Below are positions 49,175 to 55,628 of a stretch of 64,000 nt of DNA, piece by piece. Source of the stretch: Pseudomonas laurentiana (GTDB lineage Bacteria > Pseudomonadota > Gammaproteobacteria > Pseudomonadales > Pseudomonadaceae); the NCBI RefSeq assembly GCF_014648275.1, contig NZ_BMQU01000002.1:1-64000 (forward strand). Direction: 5' to 3'. Numbering within the stretch: the stretch's first letter is position 1; each line of letters begins with the position of its first letter. Under the pieces are notes generated by a model that worked only from the letters and a program-made list of their open reading frames with translations, was not told the origin of the DNA and ran no database searches. Both the position numbers and the translations under genes were made by a program.

Positions 49175-51345
49175 GCCACTTCCCGAACGATCTGGTAGGC
49201 AACCTGCTGCTCTGTAGCTTGCTCGGCCAGCGTTTCGTACAGCACTTCGGCGGTGATCATGCCGCGTGCCACCAGGTGCTCGCCAATGGACATCTGCTCA
49301 GCGTTGAAGTCAATCAGCGCCTGATTAAACAGGCTGCTTGGCAAAATGCCCCGCACCTGTAGCAGTGCGCCGAGCATGACTTGGTGATGACTGACCCGTT
49401 CGAGCAGCCTCTCATCATTCTGATGCCTGGCAAGCACGGCCAGCATCTGCCGTGTGTCCTCCTGTTGCCAAGGGCTGGGGTAGTGGTAACTCAAGCCCAG
49501 GGCGACCCGTCCCTGCGGGGCCAGTTGGCAGCGTACGGGGCGTTTTAGCTGGCGACTGATCACCCCGAGGGCGACTTGGCTGACCGGTCCCTCACTGGCC
49601 AGAACCAGCGTTGCCCCCTCTTCAGCGACCGGTAGTACGGCATAATGAATCGCCAGTCGACGAGGTAGCTGGGCAATCAGCTCCGGGGCAATCTTGAAAG
49701 GATTGAGTGGCGCCCACTCCAGCTCCAGCTGTTCGGCAAGGGCCTGGACCAGTTGCTCGCTGTCGATCAACCCGCGCAGCAGCAGTTCACGCCCCAAGCG
49801 CCGACGCACCGGGCTGGTCAGGGCTGCTTCCAGTTGCGCTTCACTGATCAGGCCCTTGGCCACCAATCGGTGCCCCAGCGGTACGCGCATGGGCGTGGTC
49901 AGGGCGGGAAACTCGTGAGTGGTCTTGTCCCAGGCAACCCGTCGCGAGTCGCCCATCTCCAGAACCTGGCGCAGGGCGCGCAGGTTGGCGAAAAAATTGA
50001 CGAAGTTACTCCACATCATTCGTGGCGCCGACAGCAGGCCTTCGATGATGCCGTAGTAACGGGTGACGAAGTAGCCGCGTTGAAACAACCGATTGATCAA
50101 GAGCAGGCCATTGAGCCAAAGCAATGTCACCAACACGGGGCTGTCGGAGAGGATGGAAGGGAAGCGCCAGGCGTGTGGGGCGATCACCGTTACCAGCCAC
50201 ATGGCCAATAACACCAGGAACAACAGATTCACCAAAAAGCTCAGCAGGTAGGCGAAAAGTCCACGGCGATCGCGCCAGAGGAAGTAGTTGAGCGCCTTGG
50301 TATGGCCCCAGCCCAGGTTGCTGGTGCCCTGAAAAACAATCCCGACGATCCAGCGTGACTTCTGACGAATCGCGTGTTGCCAGTCACGCGGGAAGTGCTC
50401 GCGCACACAGATGACCTGGGCAAACTCGCGGCTCATTCCCCAACGCCATTCGCGCTTGAGCGCCAGTTGCGGGTCGTTCATCGAATAGCGGGCGAAGATG
50501 CACTTCATGCCCTTTTGCTTGAGCCTGAAGCCAATGTCGTAGTCTTCGGTAAGGCTCTGGACATCGAATGCAATGCCATCGCCGTCTTCAAGTAGGGCAG
50601 TGATTGCCCGTCGACTGAAACAGGTGCCGACACCGGCACTGGGTACCTGGCCGCTGAGGGCTTCGCGGACAATCACATCCTTGCCATGGTTTTCGGCGAA
50701 TTCATCGACGTAATGCCCCGCAGTAAAACCGTGCCACTGTGGCGTGAAGGGGTAGACCGGTATCTGAATCATGTCCTTGTTGGGCAGGAGGTAGTTGAAC
50801 AGCCGCAGCTCCATGGGTGAAATGACGTCCTCCGCGTCATGCAGAATGAAACCGGCGAACTCGATCCTGGCATCACGCTGGAAGCGCAGAATCGCGTCGA
50901 TGATGTTGTTCAGGCAGTCCGCTTTGCTGGTTGGGCCGGGGCGGGCGCAGATGACTTTGTGAACATTTGGAAAGTGCAGGCACACCGCATCAACATCGGC
51001 TTGGGTTGACGGATCGTTGGGGTAGGTGCCGACAAAGATCTGGTAGTTTTCATAATCGAGGGTGGAGGCCGCCAGACGCGCCATTTCGCCGACGACGCCC
51101 ACTTCGTGCCAGGCGGGCACCATGATTGCCAGCGGCTTTTCCGGCACGTCAAACAGGCGTCGTTCGTCAGCACGGGCGTACTTGTCGTAGATCCGAAAAC
51201 GGCGCACCAGTTTGCGTAGCCAATAGACCAGGTCGATGAACAGGTCGTCTAGCCCCAGCAGGAACATCAGGCTGGCAAGTACAATGGCCAGCAGCTTGAG
51301 AGCAAACAGCACATAGGCCAGAAAATCGACCAGGCCCAGGCTCAT
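49171..51345 (-). CDS. nfrB: NfrB-like glycosyltransferase with c-di-GMP-binding MshEN repeats
   Basis: 724 residues. An N-terminal helix pair, then a GT2-type synthase domain: IMVPAWHEVGVVGEMARLA near 75, LHDAEDVIS near 170, TEDYDIGFRL near 270 and QKSRWIVG (QxxRW), followed by membrane helices. The C-terminus has MshEN-type c-di-GMP-binding repeats (LGxxLxxxGxxxxxxL) at about residues 489, 516, 657 and 686; the 516 copy, RLGRELLLRGLIDSEQLVQA, fits the consensus exactly. Overlaps wecB and nfrA by 4 nt each. It is inferred to polymerise a ManNAc-containing glycan when c-di-GMP is high. Confidence 0.85.
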   Translation of the reverse strand: MSLGLVDFLAYVLFALKLLAIVLASLMFLLGLDDLFIDLVYWLRKLVRRFRIYDKYARADERRLFDVPEKPLAIMVPAWHEVGVVGEMARLAASTLDYENYQIFVGTYPNDPSTQADVDAVCLHFPNVHKVICARPGPTSKADCLNNIIDAILRFQRDARIEFAGFILHDAEDVISPMELRLFNYLLPNKDMIQIPVYPFTPQWHGFTAGHYVDEFAENHGKDVIVREALSGQVPSAGVGTCFSRRAITALLEDGDGIAFDVQSLTEDYDIGFRLKQKGMKCIFARYSMNDPQLALKREWRWGMSREFAQVICVREHFPRDWQHAIRQKSRWIVGIVFQGTSNLGWGHTKALNYFLWRDRRGLFAYLLSFLVNLLFLVLLAMWLVTVIAPHAWRFPSILSDSPVLVTLLWLNGLLLINRLFQRGYFVTRYYGIIEGLLSAPRMMWSNFVNFFANLRALRQVLEMGDSRRVAWDKTTHEFPALTTPMRVPLGHRLVAKGLISEAQLEAALTSPVRRRLGRELLLRGLIDSEQLVQALAEQLELEWAPLNPFKIAPELIAQLPRRLAIHYAVLPVAEEGATLVLASEGPVSQVALGVISRQLKRPVRCQLAPQGRVALGLSYHYPSPWQQEDTRQMLAVLARHQNDERLLERVSHHQVMLGALLQVRGILPSSLFNQALIDFNAEQMSIGEHLVARGMITAEVLYETLAEQATEQQVAYQIVREVA

Positions 51346-52496
51346 GAAGATTCTCGCCCGGTGGCGTTTTCCTCGAGCCAGCGGCTCAGTCGTTCAGCGA
51401 TGCGCTCGCTGGCATGTCCATCGCCGTAAGGGCTGAGTACCCGGCTCATGTGTTGGTAGACGTCAGGCTCTTCAAGTAAACGACTGGTCTCTTTGACGAT
51501 CCGCTCGGTTTGTGTGCCTACCAGCACTACCGTGCCACCCTCCAGCACTGAAGGTCGCTCCGTGACTTTGCGCAGCACCAACAGTGGCTTGCCCAGCGCC
51601 GGGGCTTCTTCCTGGATGCCCCCGGAGTCACTCAGGATCAGGTACGCGCGGTCCATCAGCCAGACAAAGTGTTGATAGTCCTGAGGGGCGATCAACAAAA
51701 TGTTCGGCTGATGCGAAAGCACCGAATAGACGGCTCTCTGCACGTGTGGGTTGAGGTGCACCGGGTAGACGAACTGGACGTCGGGGTAGCGCAGTGCCAA
51801 TTCAGCGATCGCCAGGCAGATACGCTCAAAGCCATGCCCGAAATTTTCCCGGCGGTGGCCTGTGATCAGGACCATGCGCTGGTCATCGCGCAAGGCTGAC
51901 AGTGGCGAGTTGGCGGCCGGTTTCCAGTGGCTGCTCTTGAGGTGTTCACGCATCCATAACAGGGCATCGATCACCGTGTTGCCGGTGACTTCGATCTGTT
52001 CCAGTACCACGCCTTCGCGCAACAGGTTATCGCGCGCCTTCTTGGTCGGAGGAAAGTGCAGGTCGGCGATGATGGCTGTCAGGCGTCGATTGGCCTCTTC
52101 TGGCCAAGGTGACTTGAGGTTGCCGGTACGCAGACCCGCCTCGACATGGGCAATGGGAATATGGCGATTGAAGGCGCAGAGGGCTGCGATGAAGCTGGTG
52201 GTGGTGTCGCCGTGAACCAGGACAATGTCGGGTTTCAGCCGGTCATAATGAAGGTCGAGTTTACCCAGCAACTGTTGGGAAAGCCCGTTCAGGCTCTGGT
52301 TGTCGGTCATCACCTGCAGGTCTATGTCGACAGTCAGGCCAAAGTCCCTGAGGACTTGACTGAGCATTTCTCGGTGCTGCCCGCTGGAGCAGATGTTCAG
52401 CTCTATCTCGGGCCACTGGCGCAATACCCTCGCCAGCGGCGCCATCTTGATCGCTTCAGGACGAGTGCCGAAAACCATCATGACTTTATAGGGCAT
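51342..52496 (-). CDS. wecB: UDP-N-acetylglucosamine 2-epimerase (non-hydrolysing)
   Basis: 384 residues, standard WecB length. MMVFGTRPEAIKMAPL at the start, VHGDTTTSFIAALCAFN near 95, VEAGLRTGNLKSPWPEE, TGHRRENFG near 215 and SDSGGIQEEAPALGKPLLVLR near 290 are all conserved. It converts UDP-GlcNAc to UDP-ManNAc, here probably to feed NfrB. AGGAG sits 8 nt before the ATG at 52496. First gene of the coupled wecB-nfrB-nfrA-DUF4434 operon. Confidence 0.92.
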   Translation of the reverse strand: MPYKVMMVFGTRPEAIKMAPLARVLRQWPEIELNICSSGQHREMLSQVLRDFGLTVDIDLQVMTDNQSLNGLSQQLLGKLDLHYDRLKPDIVLVHGDTTTSFIAALCAFNRHIPIAHVEAGLRTGNLKSPWPEEANRRLTAIIADLHFPPTKKARDNLLREGVVLEQIEVTGNTVIDALLWMREHLKSSHWKPAANSPLSALRDDQRMVLITGHRRENFGHGFERICLAIAELALRYPDVQFVYPVHLNPHVQRAVYSVLSHQPNILLIAPQDYQHFVWLMDRAYLILSDSGGIQEEAPALGKPLLVLRKVTERPSVLEGGTVVLVGTQTERIVKETSRLLEEPDVYQHMSRVLSPYGDGHASERIAERLSRWLEENATGRESS

Positions 52497-52650: not shown

Positions 52651-52679
52651 TTGACTTAGCGACAACGCTGGGCTAGTTT
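52651..52679 (+). promoter_or_regulatory. Promoter of the ilvA leader
   Basis: TTGACT (52651-52656) and TAGTTT (52674-52679) are 17 nt apart. Transcription would begin at about 52686-52687, at or beside the ATG of the leader peptide, which would make the leader mRNA leaderless. The region 52497-52650 between this and wecB shows no gene. Confidence 0.5.
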
Positions 52680-52686
52680 CCTTTCC

Positions 52687-52752
52687 ATGACTTTACTCCC
52701 GCATTTGCCTCAGCACAGCATTATTACCGCCATTATCGTATTGGCGGGCTAG
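52687..52752 (+). CDS. Branched-chain amino-acid leader peptide
   Basis: A 21-residue open frame reading MTLLPHLPQHSIITAIIVLA plus a final G. Ten of its residues are Leu, Ile, Val or Thr, with Ile-Ile-Thr-Ala-Ile-Ile-Val-Leu in a cluster, the composition of ilv-type attenuator peptides. It is followed at once by competing RNA stems and a terminator before a threonine dehydratase gene. Stalling at Ile or Val codons would favour read-through. No ribosome-binding site is seen, consistent with the predicted transcript start at the ATG. Confidence 0.75.
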   Translation: MTLLPHLPQHSIITAIIVLAG

Positions 52753-52800
52753 CTGGCACTTGCACCGAACCCGCCCTGGAGGCGGGTTCTTTCTCTCTCT
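52743..52800 (+). promoter_or_regulatory. Attenuator: terminator and antiterminator before ilvA
   Basis: GAACCCGCC (52767-52775) and GGCGGGTTC (52781-52789) form a 9-bp stem with a 5-nt loop, followed by a T/C-rich tract (TTTCTCTCTCTCC), a plausible intrinsic terminator. GGCGGG at 52743-52748, in the last codons of the leader peptide, can pair instead with CCCGCC at 52770-52775. A ribosome finishing the peptide would cover it and allow the terminator; one stalled at the earlier Ile codons would leave it free to form the antiterminator. Confidence 0.72.
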
Positions 52801-52832
52801 CCTGGGCACTTTCAAGAAACCAGGAGTCACCG

Positions 52833-54395
52833 ATGACCAGCCTTACTGCTTGCCCCAGCGCACCGACTGTCTTGACCACGATGCTGTCGGACTATGTGCG
52901 GCGGATCCTTGCCGCACCGGTGTATGACCTGGCAATTGAAACGCCTCTGCAATCCGCGCGGGCGCTATCCGCAGCGCTGGGCAATGACGTGCTGCTCAAG
53001 CGTGAAGACTTGCAGCCCACCTTTTCCTTCAAGATCCGCGGTGCCTATACCCGGCTGAGCGCGTTGACTGCGGCGCAGCGCGCGTGTGGTGTGGTCACCG
53101 CTTCTGCGGGTAATCATGCTCAGGGCGTTGCCTTGGCCGCCCGCGAACTGGCCATGATCGCCACCATCGTGATGCCAACCACCACCCCTGAGCTGAAGGT
53201 CGAGGGTGTACGTTCCCGTGGCGGCCAGGTGGTACTGCACGGCGAGAGCTTTCCTCAGGCCCTGGCCCATGCGCTGATGTTGGCCGATTCGGAGGGCATG
53301 ACCTTTGTGCCGCCATTCGATGATCCGGATGTCATTGCAGGGCAGGGTACTGTTGCCATGGAGATCCTTCGTCAACAGCCTGGCAACCTGGATGCGATCT
53401 TCGTACCCGTCGGCGGCGGTGGTTTGATCGCCGGAATTGCGGCGTACGTCAAATACCTGCGCCCGTCGGTCAAGGTCATCGGTGTCGAGCCGCAGGACTC
53501 CAACTGCCTGCAAGCGGCAATGGCCGCCGGGGAGCGGGTCGTGTTGCCGCAGGTGGGCAGCTTTGCCGACGGGGTGGCAGTGGCGCAGATCGGTGCCCAC
53601 TGCTTTGACGTGTGCCGTCACTTCGTGGATGAGGTGATCACCGTGGGTAACGATGAGATCTGCGCGGCGATCAAGGACATCTATGACGATACCCGCTCGA
53701 TCACCGAACCGTCGGGTGCATTGGCCGTCGCCGGGATCAAGCGTTATGTGGCTTCACGTGGGGTGAGCGGGCAGACGCTGGTCGCCATCGACTCGGGGGC
53801 CAATGTCAATTTCGATCGCCTGCGCCATGTTGCCGAACGGGCCGAGTTGGGGGAGCAGCGTGAGGCAATCATTGCCGTGACGATCCCGGAACAACCGGGC
53901 AGTTTCCGGGCATTCTGCCAGGCGCTGGGCAAGCGTCAGATCACCGAATTCAACTACCGCTACTACCCCGGGAAAGAGGCCCGTTTGTTCGTTGGCGTGC
54001 AGACCCACCCACAGCGCGACCCGCGCGCGCAGTTGCTGGCAAGCCTGCGGGAGCAGGGCTACAACGTGCTCGACCTGACGGACAATGAGTTGGCCAAGCT
54101 GCATGTTCGTCACACGGTGGGTGGCCATGCCGGGCCGGGCGCCCACGAGCGGGTACTGCGCTTTGAGTTTCCGGAACGCCCTGGCGCCTTGTTGGCATTC
54201 CTTGAGCGACTGGGCAAGCGCTGGAACATCAGCCTGTTCCACTACCGCAATCATGGTTCCGCCGAAGCCAGGGTATTTGCCGCCCTCGAGGTCCCTGAGG
54301 AAGAGCGTGCCGAGTTGCCGGCAGCGCTGGACGCCATGGGCTACCGCTATTGGGATGAAACGGATAACCCGGCCTACCAGTTGTTTCTGGGTTGA
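52833..54395 (+). CDS. ilvA: Threonine dehydratase (biosynthetic type, two ACT-like domains)
   Basis: 520 residues. The PLP lysine is K67 in FSFKIRGAY, the phosphate loop is VPVGGGGLIAG near 200, and the C-terminal 190 residues form two ACT-like regulatory domains (AVTIPEQPGSFRAFCQAL; FEFPERPGALLAFLERLG), as in isoleucine-inhibited biosynthetic enzymes. It makes 2-oxobutanoate from threonine for isoleucine synthesis. CAGGAG lies 7 nt before the ATG at 52833. The leader-peptide attenuator upstream fits an isoleucine-pathway role. Other ilv genes are absent here. Confidence 0.9.
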   Translation: MTSLTACPSAPTVLTTMLSDYVRRILAAPVYDLAIETPLQSARALSAALGNDVLLKREDLQPTFSFKIRGAYTRLSALTAAQRACGVVTASAGNHAQGVALAARELAMIATIVMPTTTPELKVEGVRSRGGQVVLHGESFPQALAHALMLADSEGMTFVPPFDDPDVIAGQGTVAMEILRQQPGNLDAIFVPVGGGGLIAGIAAYVKYLRPSVKVIGVEPQDSNCLQAAMAAGERVVLPQVGSFADGVAVAQIGAHCFDVCRHFVDEVITVGNDEICAAIKDIYDDTRSITEPSGALAVAGIKRYVASRGVSGQTLVAIDSGANVNFDRLRHVAERAELGEQREAIIAVTIPEQPGSFRAFCQALGKRQITEFNYRYYPGKEARLFVGVQTHPQRDPRAQLLASLREQGYNVLDLTDNELAKLHVRHTVGGHAGPGAHERVLRFEFPERPGALLAFLERLGKRWNISLFHYRNHGSAEARVFAALEVPEEERAELPAALDAMGYRYWDETDNPAYQLFLG

Positions 54396-54479
54396 ACCCT
54401 GCGTTGCCTCAGATCAACACACGAATTGGCCCGGAGGTAGATCCTGAGTGCAATCGCACATTGCATGAGGGATTGGGTC

Positions 54480-55628
54480 ATGAGCAGTACGTTTTTCATT
54501 CCAGCAGTCAACATCATGGGTATCGATTGCCTGACAGAGGCCATGGACGCGATTGCCGCTCATGGTTTTCGCAAGGCCTTGATCGTTACAGACAGTGGCC
54601 TTGCCAAGGCTGGCGTGGCCTACAAGATCTCCGAGCAGTTGGCGGTGCGCGACATTGATGCGGCAATCTTCGATGGCGCCAAGCCCAACCCCAGCATCGC
54701 CAACGTCGAGCAAGGTCTGGCGATGCTGGAGCGTGAGCGCTGTGACTTTGTCCTCTCGTTGGGCGGCGGTTCACCCCATGACTGTGCCAAGGGCATCGCA
54801 CTGTGCGCTACCAACGGCGGGCATATCCGCGACTACGAAGGTGTTGATCGTTCGGCCAAGCCACAGTTGCCCCTGGTTGCCATCAACACCACAGCCGGTA
54901 CTGCCAGTGAAATGACCCGTTTCTGCATCATTACCGACGAGGCACGCCACGTAAAAATGGCCATTGTCGACCGTAACGTGACGCCGCTGTTGTCGGTCAA
55001 CGACCCGGCGCTGATGGTTGCCATGCCCAAGTCACTGACTGCCGCAACCGGCATGGACGCACTGACCCATGCGATTGAGGCGTATGTGTCGACGGCGGCT
55101 ACGCCGATTACCGATGCCTGTGCACTGAAAGCGATTGAGTTGATCAGTGAGAACCTGCGCCAGGCGGTTGCCGAAGGCAGTGACCTCAAGGCCAGGGAGA
55201 ACATGGCCTATGCACAGTTTCTGGCAGGCATGGCCTTCAACAATGCCTCTCTGGGCTATGTGCATGCGATGGCTCACCAGCTGGGCGGTTTCTATGACTT
55301 GCCTCATGGCGTCTGCAACGCGGTGCTGCTGCCGCATGTACAGCGCTTTAATGCCAGCGTCAGTGCGGCGCGCTTGCGCGATGTGGCCAAGGCCATGGGG
55401 ATCGAAACCAATGGCTTGACCGCAGAGCAGGGCAGCGATGCGGCCATTGCCGGGATCGTCAGCCTGGCACGGGCTATCGATATTCCGGCCGGTCTGGCGG
55501 TACTTGGTGCACGCGAAGAGGATATCCCCACGTTGGCAACCAATGCGCTGAAGGATGCCTGTGGCCTGACCAACCCACGTCCGGCGAACCAGGCCGAGAT
55601 TGAGGCGATCTTCAAGGCTGCGTTCTGA
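54480..55628 (+). CDS. Iron-containing alcohol dehydrogenase
   Basis: 382 residues, group [21 protein letters not shown] is the NAD-binding motif near residue 98. AVTHAI-like metal ligands appear as [15 protein letters not shown] near 190, followed by [20 protein letters not shown], whose histidines hold iron. It resembles YiaY/DhaT/lactaldehyde reductase-type enzymes and oxidises short alcohols or reduces aldehydes; the substrate is not evident. GAGG lies 9 nt before the ATG at 54480, so the ATG at 54465 is less likely. 84 nt after ilvA. Confidence 0.85.

Follow-up and report, generated by a model that had tools for sequence, protein, structure and literature searches.

The question raised by this locus is whether the short interval in front of ilvA carries a ribosome-mediated attenuator and, if so, which amino acid such a switch would read and from what kind of transcript its leader peptide would be translated. 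The gene (positions 52833-54395, plus strand) lies in the 64,000-nucleotide stretch of Pseudomonas DNA analysed here, referred to as the window. It encodes a biosynthetic threonine ammonia-lyase of 520 amino acids that scores over the cut-offs of both NCBIfam NF009130 and TIGR01124, and its Shine-Dalgarno AGGAG can be read from the sequence at 52822-52826. The 5' flank of the region of interest (52651-52832) is a wecB-like epimerase gene on the minus strand (51342-52496), divergent from ilvA. The original prediction, made from the letters of this DNA, had placed an attenuator here, and comparison with relatives supports that proposal well: the element, already catalogued as P9, is very probably a leaderless transcription attenuator of ilvA that would respond to charged isoleucine tRNA.

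Positions 52717-52790 match the Rfam family RF00624, 'Pseudomonas sRNA P9', with 89 bits against a gathering cut-off of 43 and over the full length of the model (1-74). The original prediction needs a correction here, in that the element is not a one-off. The match spans the region from the codon before a pair of isoleucine codons to the end of a terminator, and since the model begins just before these codons it represents the second half of the proposed attenuator only, with neither leader start nor promoter. That a threonine dehydratase gene lies downstream of P9 may have been noted before, presumably in the encyclopaedia text on the family; the source paper of the family is reportedly Livny et al. 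2006, which is said to give P9 no function. Within the genus, 149 of 199 genomes have P9 at E≤0.001, and 142 score over the cut-off; within the family it is present in 132 of 248 genomes at E≤0.01, of which 97 are over the cut-off and many of the others weak. For comparison, 137 loci were oriented, comprising 57 best-scoring and 80 hand-chosen loci with weak and second hits included; the window is L021 in this set, one place is counted twice (L051 and L110), and removal of L127, which consists of a terminator only, leaves 136 loci for counts of the leader core. An ilvA-like gene lies downstream in 121 of the 137 loci, and in 86 of these 121 it is nearer to the ilvA of the window than to the paralogue ilvA1.

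The leader frame MTLLPHLPQHSIITAIIVLAG was found where it had been claimed, at 52687-52752 on the plus strand, with 21 codons that include four Ile, four Leu, two Thr and one Val and without a Shine-Dalgarno. The candidate control codons, identified by conservation, are ATT ATT (Ile Ile, 52720-52725), followed by Thr Ala Ile Ile. The prediction had been staked on conservation of this small frame among relatives, and the leader is indeed kept, being in frame with no stop before the Ile pair in all 121 ilvA-linked loci (window included). All 136 loci have ATT as their first core codon, yet ATC outnumbers ATT by 101 to 48 in five genes of the window; the second is Ile in 117 of the 121 ilvA-linked loci (Met in four) and in all 15 other loci. 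Leader length is 21 codons in 91 of 136 loci and 16-22 codons in 131, and in 112 of the 120 ilvA-linked loci that were folded the distance from the first base of the Ile pair to the stop is 30 nt, while the first ten codons drift in sequence among relatives. Single-base codon differences between nearest neighbours are synonymous in 49 of 114 cases against 23% expected, and the other two frames give 30% (frame +1) and 20%; this coding signal is only moderate evidence because the compared pairs share ancestry. Five leaders (L160, L161, L047, L053 and L103) are one base short relative to the others and end a few bases later in WRAC-stop, with their Ile codons intact despite the missing base.

Control by charged Ile, Val and Leu tRNA together, as first proposed and as in ilvGMEDA, would accommodate the four Leu codons and one Val codon of the window copy. 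In relatives, however, those codons are replaced (PVM, PYL, PHL, IIG and ITQ are examples) and the Ile pair is kept, so that the Ile part of the proposal stands, Val/Leu-tRNA sensing is unsupported, and a leader that senses leucine and valine besides isoleucine is unlikely. The enteric multivalent signature, in which Ile, Val and Leu codons are all conserved, was not found among these relatives, where Ile alone is conserved. The conserved signal of the putative leader is isoleucine, not valine or leucine.

Four RNA strands can be placed around the end of the leader. Strand 1 (CCGCCA, 52727-52732) and strand 2 (TGGCGGG, 52742-52748) are defined by fold and covariation; strand 2 lies within the last leader codons, with the leader stop codon (52750) at its end, and has either strand 1 or strand 3 as its partner. 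Strand 3 (AACCCGCC, 52768-52775) is defined by fold, and by complementarity for its pairing with strand 2. Strand 4 (GGCGGGTT, 52781-52788), defined by fold, is followed by a T/C tract to about position 52801. The 9-bp terminator stem of the original prediction, GAACCCGCC-CTGGA-GGCGGGTTC, was recovered at 52767-52789 by a terminator scan, although the T/C-rich tract behind it is interrupted. The alternative pairing GGCGGG/CCCGCC is likewise present, with 52743-52748 complementary to 52770-52775 and overlapping the terminator. Helix 1:2 (52727-52732 with 52742-52747), which the earlier reading did not name, completes a classical four-strand attenuator.

Taken alone, the terminator stem is not beyond chance, with one such site in 801 bases against 0.7 in shuffles. 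The fold of 52687-52800 has an energy of -41.6 kcal/mol (z -4.1), and none of 200 shuffles was equally good. Covariation was evaluated on 77 distinct sequences, 62 of them ilvA-linked after thinning and 15 from the other loci, hereafter the second class. In helix 1:2, 35 cells are changed on both sides, where shuffles give 7.4, and the covariation is 0.170 against 0.088, with all slid versions at or below 0.060; the number of pairs with two-sided changes (four) was equalled by 134 of 500 shuffles, but the cell count was not. The commonest change, G-C to A-U at the third pair, occurs in 14 sequences that are all second-class, and therefore perhaps reflects few events. The strands of helix 2:3 are complementary and nearly invariant, with no pair changed on both sides and 90.3% paired against 90.1% in shuffles. 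This helix is without covariation support because strand 3 has to pair with both strands 2 and 4 and hardly varies. Terminator 3:4 is 98.9% paired. Of the two stems proposed for a check of covariation, the terminator covaries a little (5 cells) and the antiterminator varies too little to be judged. In 12 relatives linked to a P-loop gene (described below), one position of strand 3 is G (7) or A (5), matched by C or T in strand 4.

A simpler explanation would be a constitutive partial terminator with a small frame that is due to chance. The chance-level result of the terminator scan alone speaks for this explanation, but the frame, the position of its stop and the covariation of helix 1:2 are kept across genera, and we give it almost no credence. 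It is conservation that lifts the predicted attenuator beyond chance.

Folding was evaluated for 120 ilvA-linked loci, leaving out L100, whose strand 4 lacks GGCGGG. Folded free of ribosomes, 118 of 120 loci form the terminator and 114 form helix 1:2. When the stretch covered by a ribosome at the Ile codons is taken out, helix 2:3 forms in 119 of 120 if strand 4 is absent, and 3:4 is the better fold at equilibrium in 118 of 120 when strand 4 is present; antitermination must therefore be kinetic, a race between ribosome and polymerase.

In the attenuator that we favour, RNA polymerase would start at or beside the A of the leader ATG, so that the ribosome would bind the bare 5' end. The footprint of a ribosome that holds the two Ile codons in its P and A sites extends about 16 nt beyond the first base of the pair. 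When Ile-tRNA is scarce, the ribosome would wait at ATT ATT and cover strand 1, leaving strand 2 free to pair with the emerging strand 3; with strand 3 held by strand 2 instead of strand 4, the polymerase would continue into ilvA. When Ile-tRNA is plentiful, a ribosome at the stop codon would mask strand 2, the 3:4 terminator would form, and a short RNA, the 'P9 sRNA', would be freed. On an untranslated leader both 1:2 and 3:4 would form, and transcription would stop as well. The start site, the stalling of the ribosome and the effect on ilvA are what we infer from the features described.

The short RNA freed in this way is also the object of a competing explanation, in which P9 is a free-standing, trans-acting sRNA and its place before ilvA is incidental. 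Rfam files RF00624 under 'Gene', as an sRNA, and the Sinorhizobium rnTrpL, a terminated attenuator RNA, acts in trans according to the available part of PMC7298713, so that a second role for P9 is possible. A free-standing sRNA is nevertheless very unlikely as the whole explanation, given that an Ile leader in frame makes up the conserved core, that helix 1:2 overlaps the codons of this leader, that strand 2 can compete for the terminator and that so large a share of the loci have an ilvA-like gene downstream.

The evidence for a leaderless transcript comes from the promoter and from the sequence just before the leader ATG. A -35 hexamer, TTGACT (52651-52656), can be read from the sequence and is followed after a 17-nt spacer by a -10 hexamer, TAGTTT (52674-52679), which ends 7 nt before the leader ATG; from the -10 spacing, the transcript would start at 52686 or 52687, the latter being the A of the ATG. 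The pair and its predicted start on the ATG are as originally described, though the -10 matches the consensus at 3 of 6 positions, which is why the promoter is absent from a 9-of-12 scan. As a consensus match the promoter was rejected, and it becomes convincing only through its spacing across relatives. The whole spaced promoter-ATG pattern occurs once in the window, with a shuffle mean of 0.02. A looser test (-35 matching at least 5/6, spacer 16-19, -10 of the form xA...T, gap to the ATG 5-9 nt) was passed by 7 of 1966 ATGs in the window and by 120 of the 121 ilvA-linked leaders (74 of 75 after thinning), L099 being the single locus without a suitable -10. In the 75 thinned sequences aligned on the ATG, a comparison that covered 48 nt upstream, the conserved blocks are TTGAC at about -37 to -33, TAATTT at -13 to -8 and C at -1. 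Immediately before the leader ATG stands a C in 115 of the 121 loci and a T in four; a pyrimidine is expected there if the transcript starts at the A. A Shine-Dalgarno-like tetramer lies in front of 3 of the 121 leader starts, as compared with 96 of the 119 downstream starts, and the Shine-Dalgarno duplex energy is -6.9 for ilvA against -2.4 for the leader start.

The fixed distance between promoter and ATG, together with the scarcity of Shine-Dalgarno sequences across relatives, argues that the leader is most likely leaderless, as had been suggested. Translation of a working attenuator from an ordinary mRNA that starts further upstream could be argued from the weak -10 and from the start site being a predicted one. 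It is improbable in view of the 48 nt before the ATG, where conservation is confined to a -35 and a -10 that keep their distance from the start codon and where no Shine-Dalgarno precedes the leader.

The proposed mechanism of attenuation is already known and is the classical enteric one. The enteric ilvGMEDA, ivbL and leu leaders, which respond to Ile, Val and Leu and belong to mRNAs with a 5' untranslated region and a ribosome-binding site, share with P9 a leader with control codons, four strands and a terminator. P9 differs from them in that it stands before a lone ilvA, has Ile as its only conserved signal and is apparently leaderless. A start at the leader ATG has been described for trpL of Sinorhizobium meliloti, the terminated form of which is the sRNA rnTrpL (PMC7298713, in part); the proposed P9 RNA is alike in both respects, whereas trpL differs from P9 in having Trp codons, in preceding trpE(G) and in belonging to an alphaproteobacterium. 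Branched-chain leader peptides are likewise shared with the Corynebacterium ilvBNC leader, discussed with leaderless initiation in an extract of PMC11857589, and with ilvB-II and ilvB-OMG, earlier RNA motifs reread as uORF attenuators in an extract of PMC10272879. These precede other genes in other bacteria, and the comparison with P9 concerns the leader peptides.

The matches listed from the openly licensed literature include no Pseudomonas study of P9 or of attenuation at ilvA. In the portions of these sources that were available, ilvA2 is given among putative targets of the sRNA SrbA (PMC5542712), no His leader was found in P. putida (PMC7822408), and attenuators are surveyed without ilvA (PMC2965389); the accessible main text of a P. 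aeruginosa start-site paper makes no mention of leaderless, ilvA or leader peptide (PMC3460626). On the literature found, and as far as our searches tell, it is new to interpret P9 as an attenuator by which isoleucine would control ilvA, as is the conservation, across a large genus, of an architecture that appears to be leaderless. This reading provides a catalogued small RNA with a concrete job and suggests leader-peptide attenuation without a Shine-Dalgarno for a large genus.

In 15 of the 137 loci, the second class, no ilvA is in reach. With L107 as the exception on both counts, 14 of these have a 1:2 stem of CCACC/GGTGG and 14 a leader core of IITT or IIPT. By tblastn, the next gene is SnoaL-like in ten (L089, L090, L094, L106, L107, L121-L124 and L126) and encodes an AAA_33 kinase in five (L088, L091-L093 and L095); in L121-L124 an AAA_33 kinase gene follows the SnoaL-like gene, and in L126 the SnoaL-like match extends over only 95 residues and is followed by an IS5-looking transposase. 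Pfam assignments were over the cut-offs as SnoaL_3 for two representatives and as AAA_33 for two. A -35 matching at least 5/6 is present in only one of the 15 loci, and an xA...T -10 ending 5-8 nt before the ATG in 14. A pattern scan (g9) built from the second-class leaders and other leaders of the same genus returned 14 contigs, 12 from Pseudomonas, one from a Methylococcales MAG and one from a Methylotenera MAG. The SnoaL-like gene is present in 13 of the 14 (cut by the contig end in L179) and was not found by tblastn in the remaining contig, L190, where ilvA follows the attenuator. An AAA_33 gene lies beside the SnoaL-like gene in nine g9 contigs, both MAGs included, and in L183 (P. citronellolis) and L184 (P. 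panipatensis) the order is attenuator, SnoaL-like gene, ilvA. An FMN riboswitch (L181:2867-3025) lies near the SnoaL/AAA_33 locus of the Methylococcales MAG.

Look-alikes extend to other gammaproteobacteria. A model built from the 77 attenuators (R1) hit, at E≤0.001, 28 of the 244 order-level genomes and 15 of the 229 class-level ones. Many weak hits were discarded as chance terminators without an Ile leader by eye (10 of 19 fetched from the order, 11 of 15 from the class), and L211, from the weak P9 list, was dropped on the same grounds. In 11 loci of the order and in L215 of the class the leader ends in IIIIP or nearly so (IIIIIP, IILIIP, ITITP, IITIA), and the gene that follows belongs to one P-loop family, with proteins 41-72% identical to that of L176; for this family AAA_33 and AAA_18 are below the cut-offs and adenylate kinase 9 is weak. 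In all, Ile-rich leaders, most of them with RIIIIP-stop at the end, were seen before this uncharacterised P-loop family in L174-L177, L192, L193, L195, L196, L199, L202, L204, L215, L237, L238 and L240. All 12 P-loop-linked leaders with promoters measured have leaderless-type spacing.

A second model matched 15 of 293 genomes of the order with 16 matches, 14 before an L176-type P-loop gene and one spurious. In the remaining match, L241:1501-1606, from another family, the Ile leader MKISKTHTKGIIIRL (GIIIRL) precedes a citramalate-synthase-like gene, which is also on an isoleucine route and whose protein scores 613.6 bits to the CimA model (cut-off 950). L242 was dropped, as its leader stops early. 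In the class, the second model matched 3 of 274 genomes, where the genes behind the matches are the P-loop gene, SnoaL-like genes (two) and one for an acetyltransferase; the last of these (L226) has a like attenuator with the leader MNKLFSIAQAMIGTIQNERWVC before a GNAT acetyltransferase gene (Acetyltransf_3 over the cut-off). In 15 of the 17 distant leaders measured, TTGAC(A/T) is followed by a 16-18 nt spacer and then by a hexamer whose end lies 6-9 nt upstream of the ATG. The other two, the ilvA leaders L194 and L201 from other families, lack this promoter spacing and look like separate attenuators. An Rfam scan of 15 distant or second-class loci placed eight at the P9 cut-off and seven below it, and a one-family label for all of them therefore rests on anatomy; the weak -35 hexamers of the second class also speak against a single family.

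We lean towards the reading, which we hold to be slightly on the probable side, that P9 is the prototype of leaderless Ile attenuators and marks an unrecognised isoleucine-shortage regulon in Pseudomonas and other gammaproteobacteria. Its members would be ilvA, the citramalate-synthase-like gene, the SnoaL-like genes, the AAA_33 kinases, the second P-loop family and the acetyltransferase. If this is true, the uncharacterised enzymes would have a part in the metabolism of isoleucine, or would protect the cell when charging of Ile-tRNA fails. The loci also provide a collection of uncharacterised genes whose expression may be turned on under isoleucine shortage. A P9-type switch before non-biosynthetic genes is also new on the literature found, as far as our searches tell.

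The genome of the window also has the paralogue ilvA1, 75% identical and, by eye, divergent from an rpiA-like sequence. An attenuator on ilvA1 was considered and rejected, as none was seen upstream by eye and the P9 search gave one match for that genome. Of the 50 P9-negative genomes of the genus, the 20 listed were searched with the window IlvA and gave one long IlvA each, 73-76% identical; for two P9-negative genomes (L076 and L077) the long IlvA match was reported with one internal stop codon. The two IlvA paralogues of P. aeruginosa have been proposed as the main source of the reactive intermediate 2-aminoacrylate in the available part of PMC9239102. The ilvA of the window may be the counterpart of one of them, and the attenuator hints at a way in which a second threonine dehydratase that is potentially harmful may be kept off. 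Downstream, 69 nt past ilvA and on the same strand, begins a gene for an iron-dependent alcohol dehydrogenase (54465-55628) that is over the cut-off of NCBIfam PRK09860 (L-threonine dehydrogenase), and this gene may share the control of ilvA.
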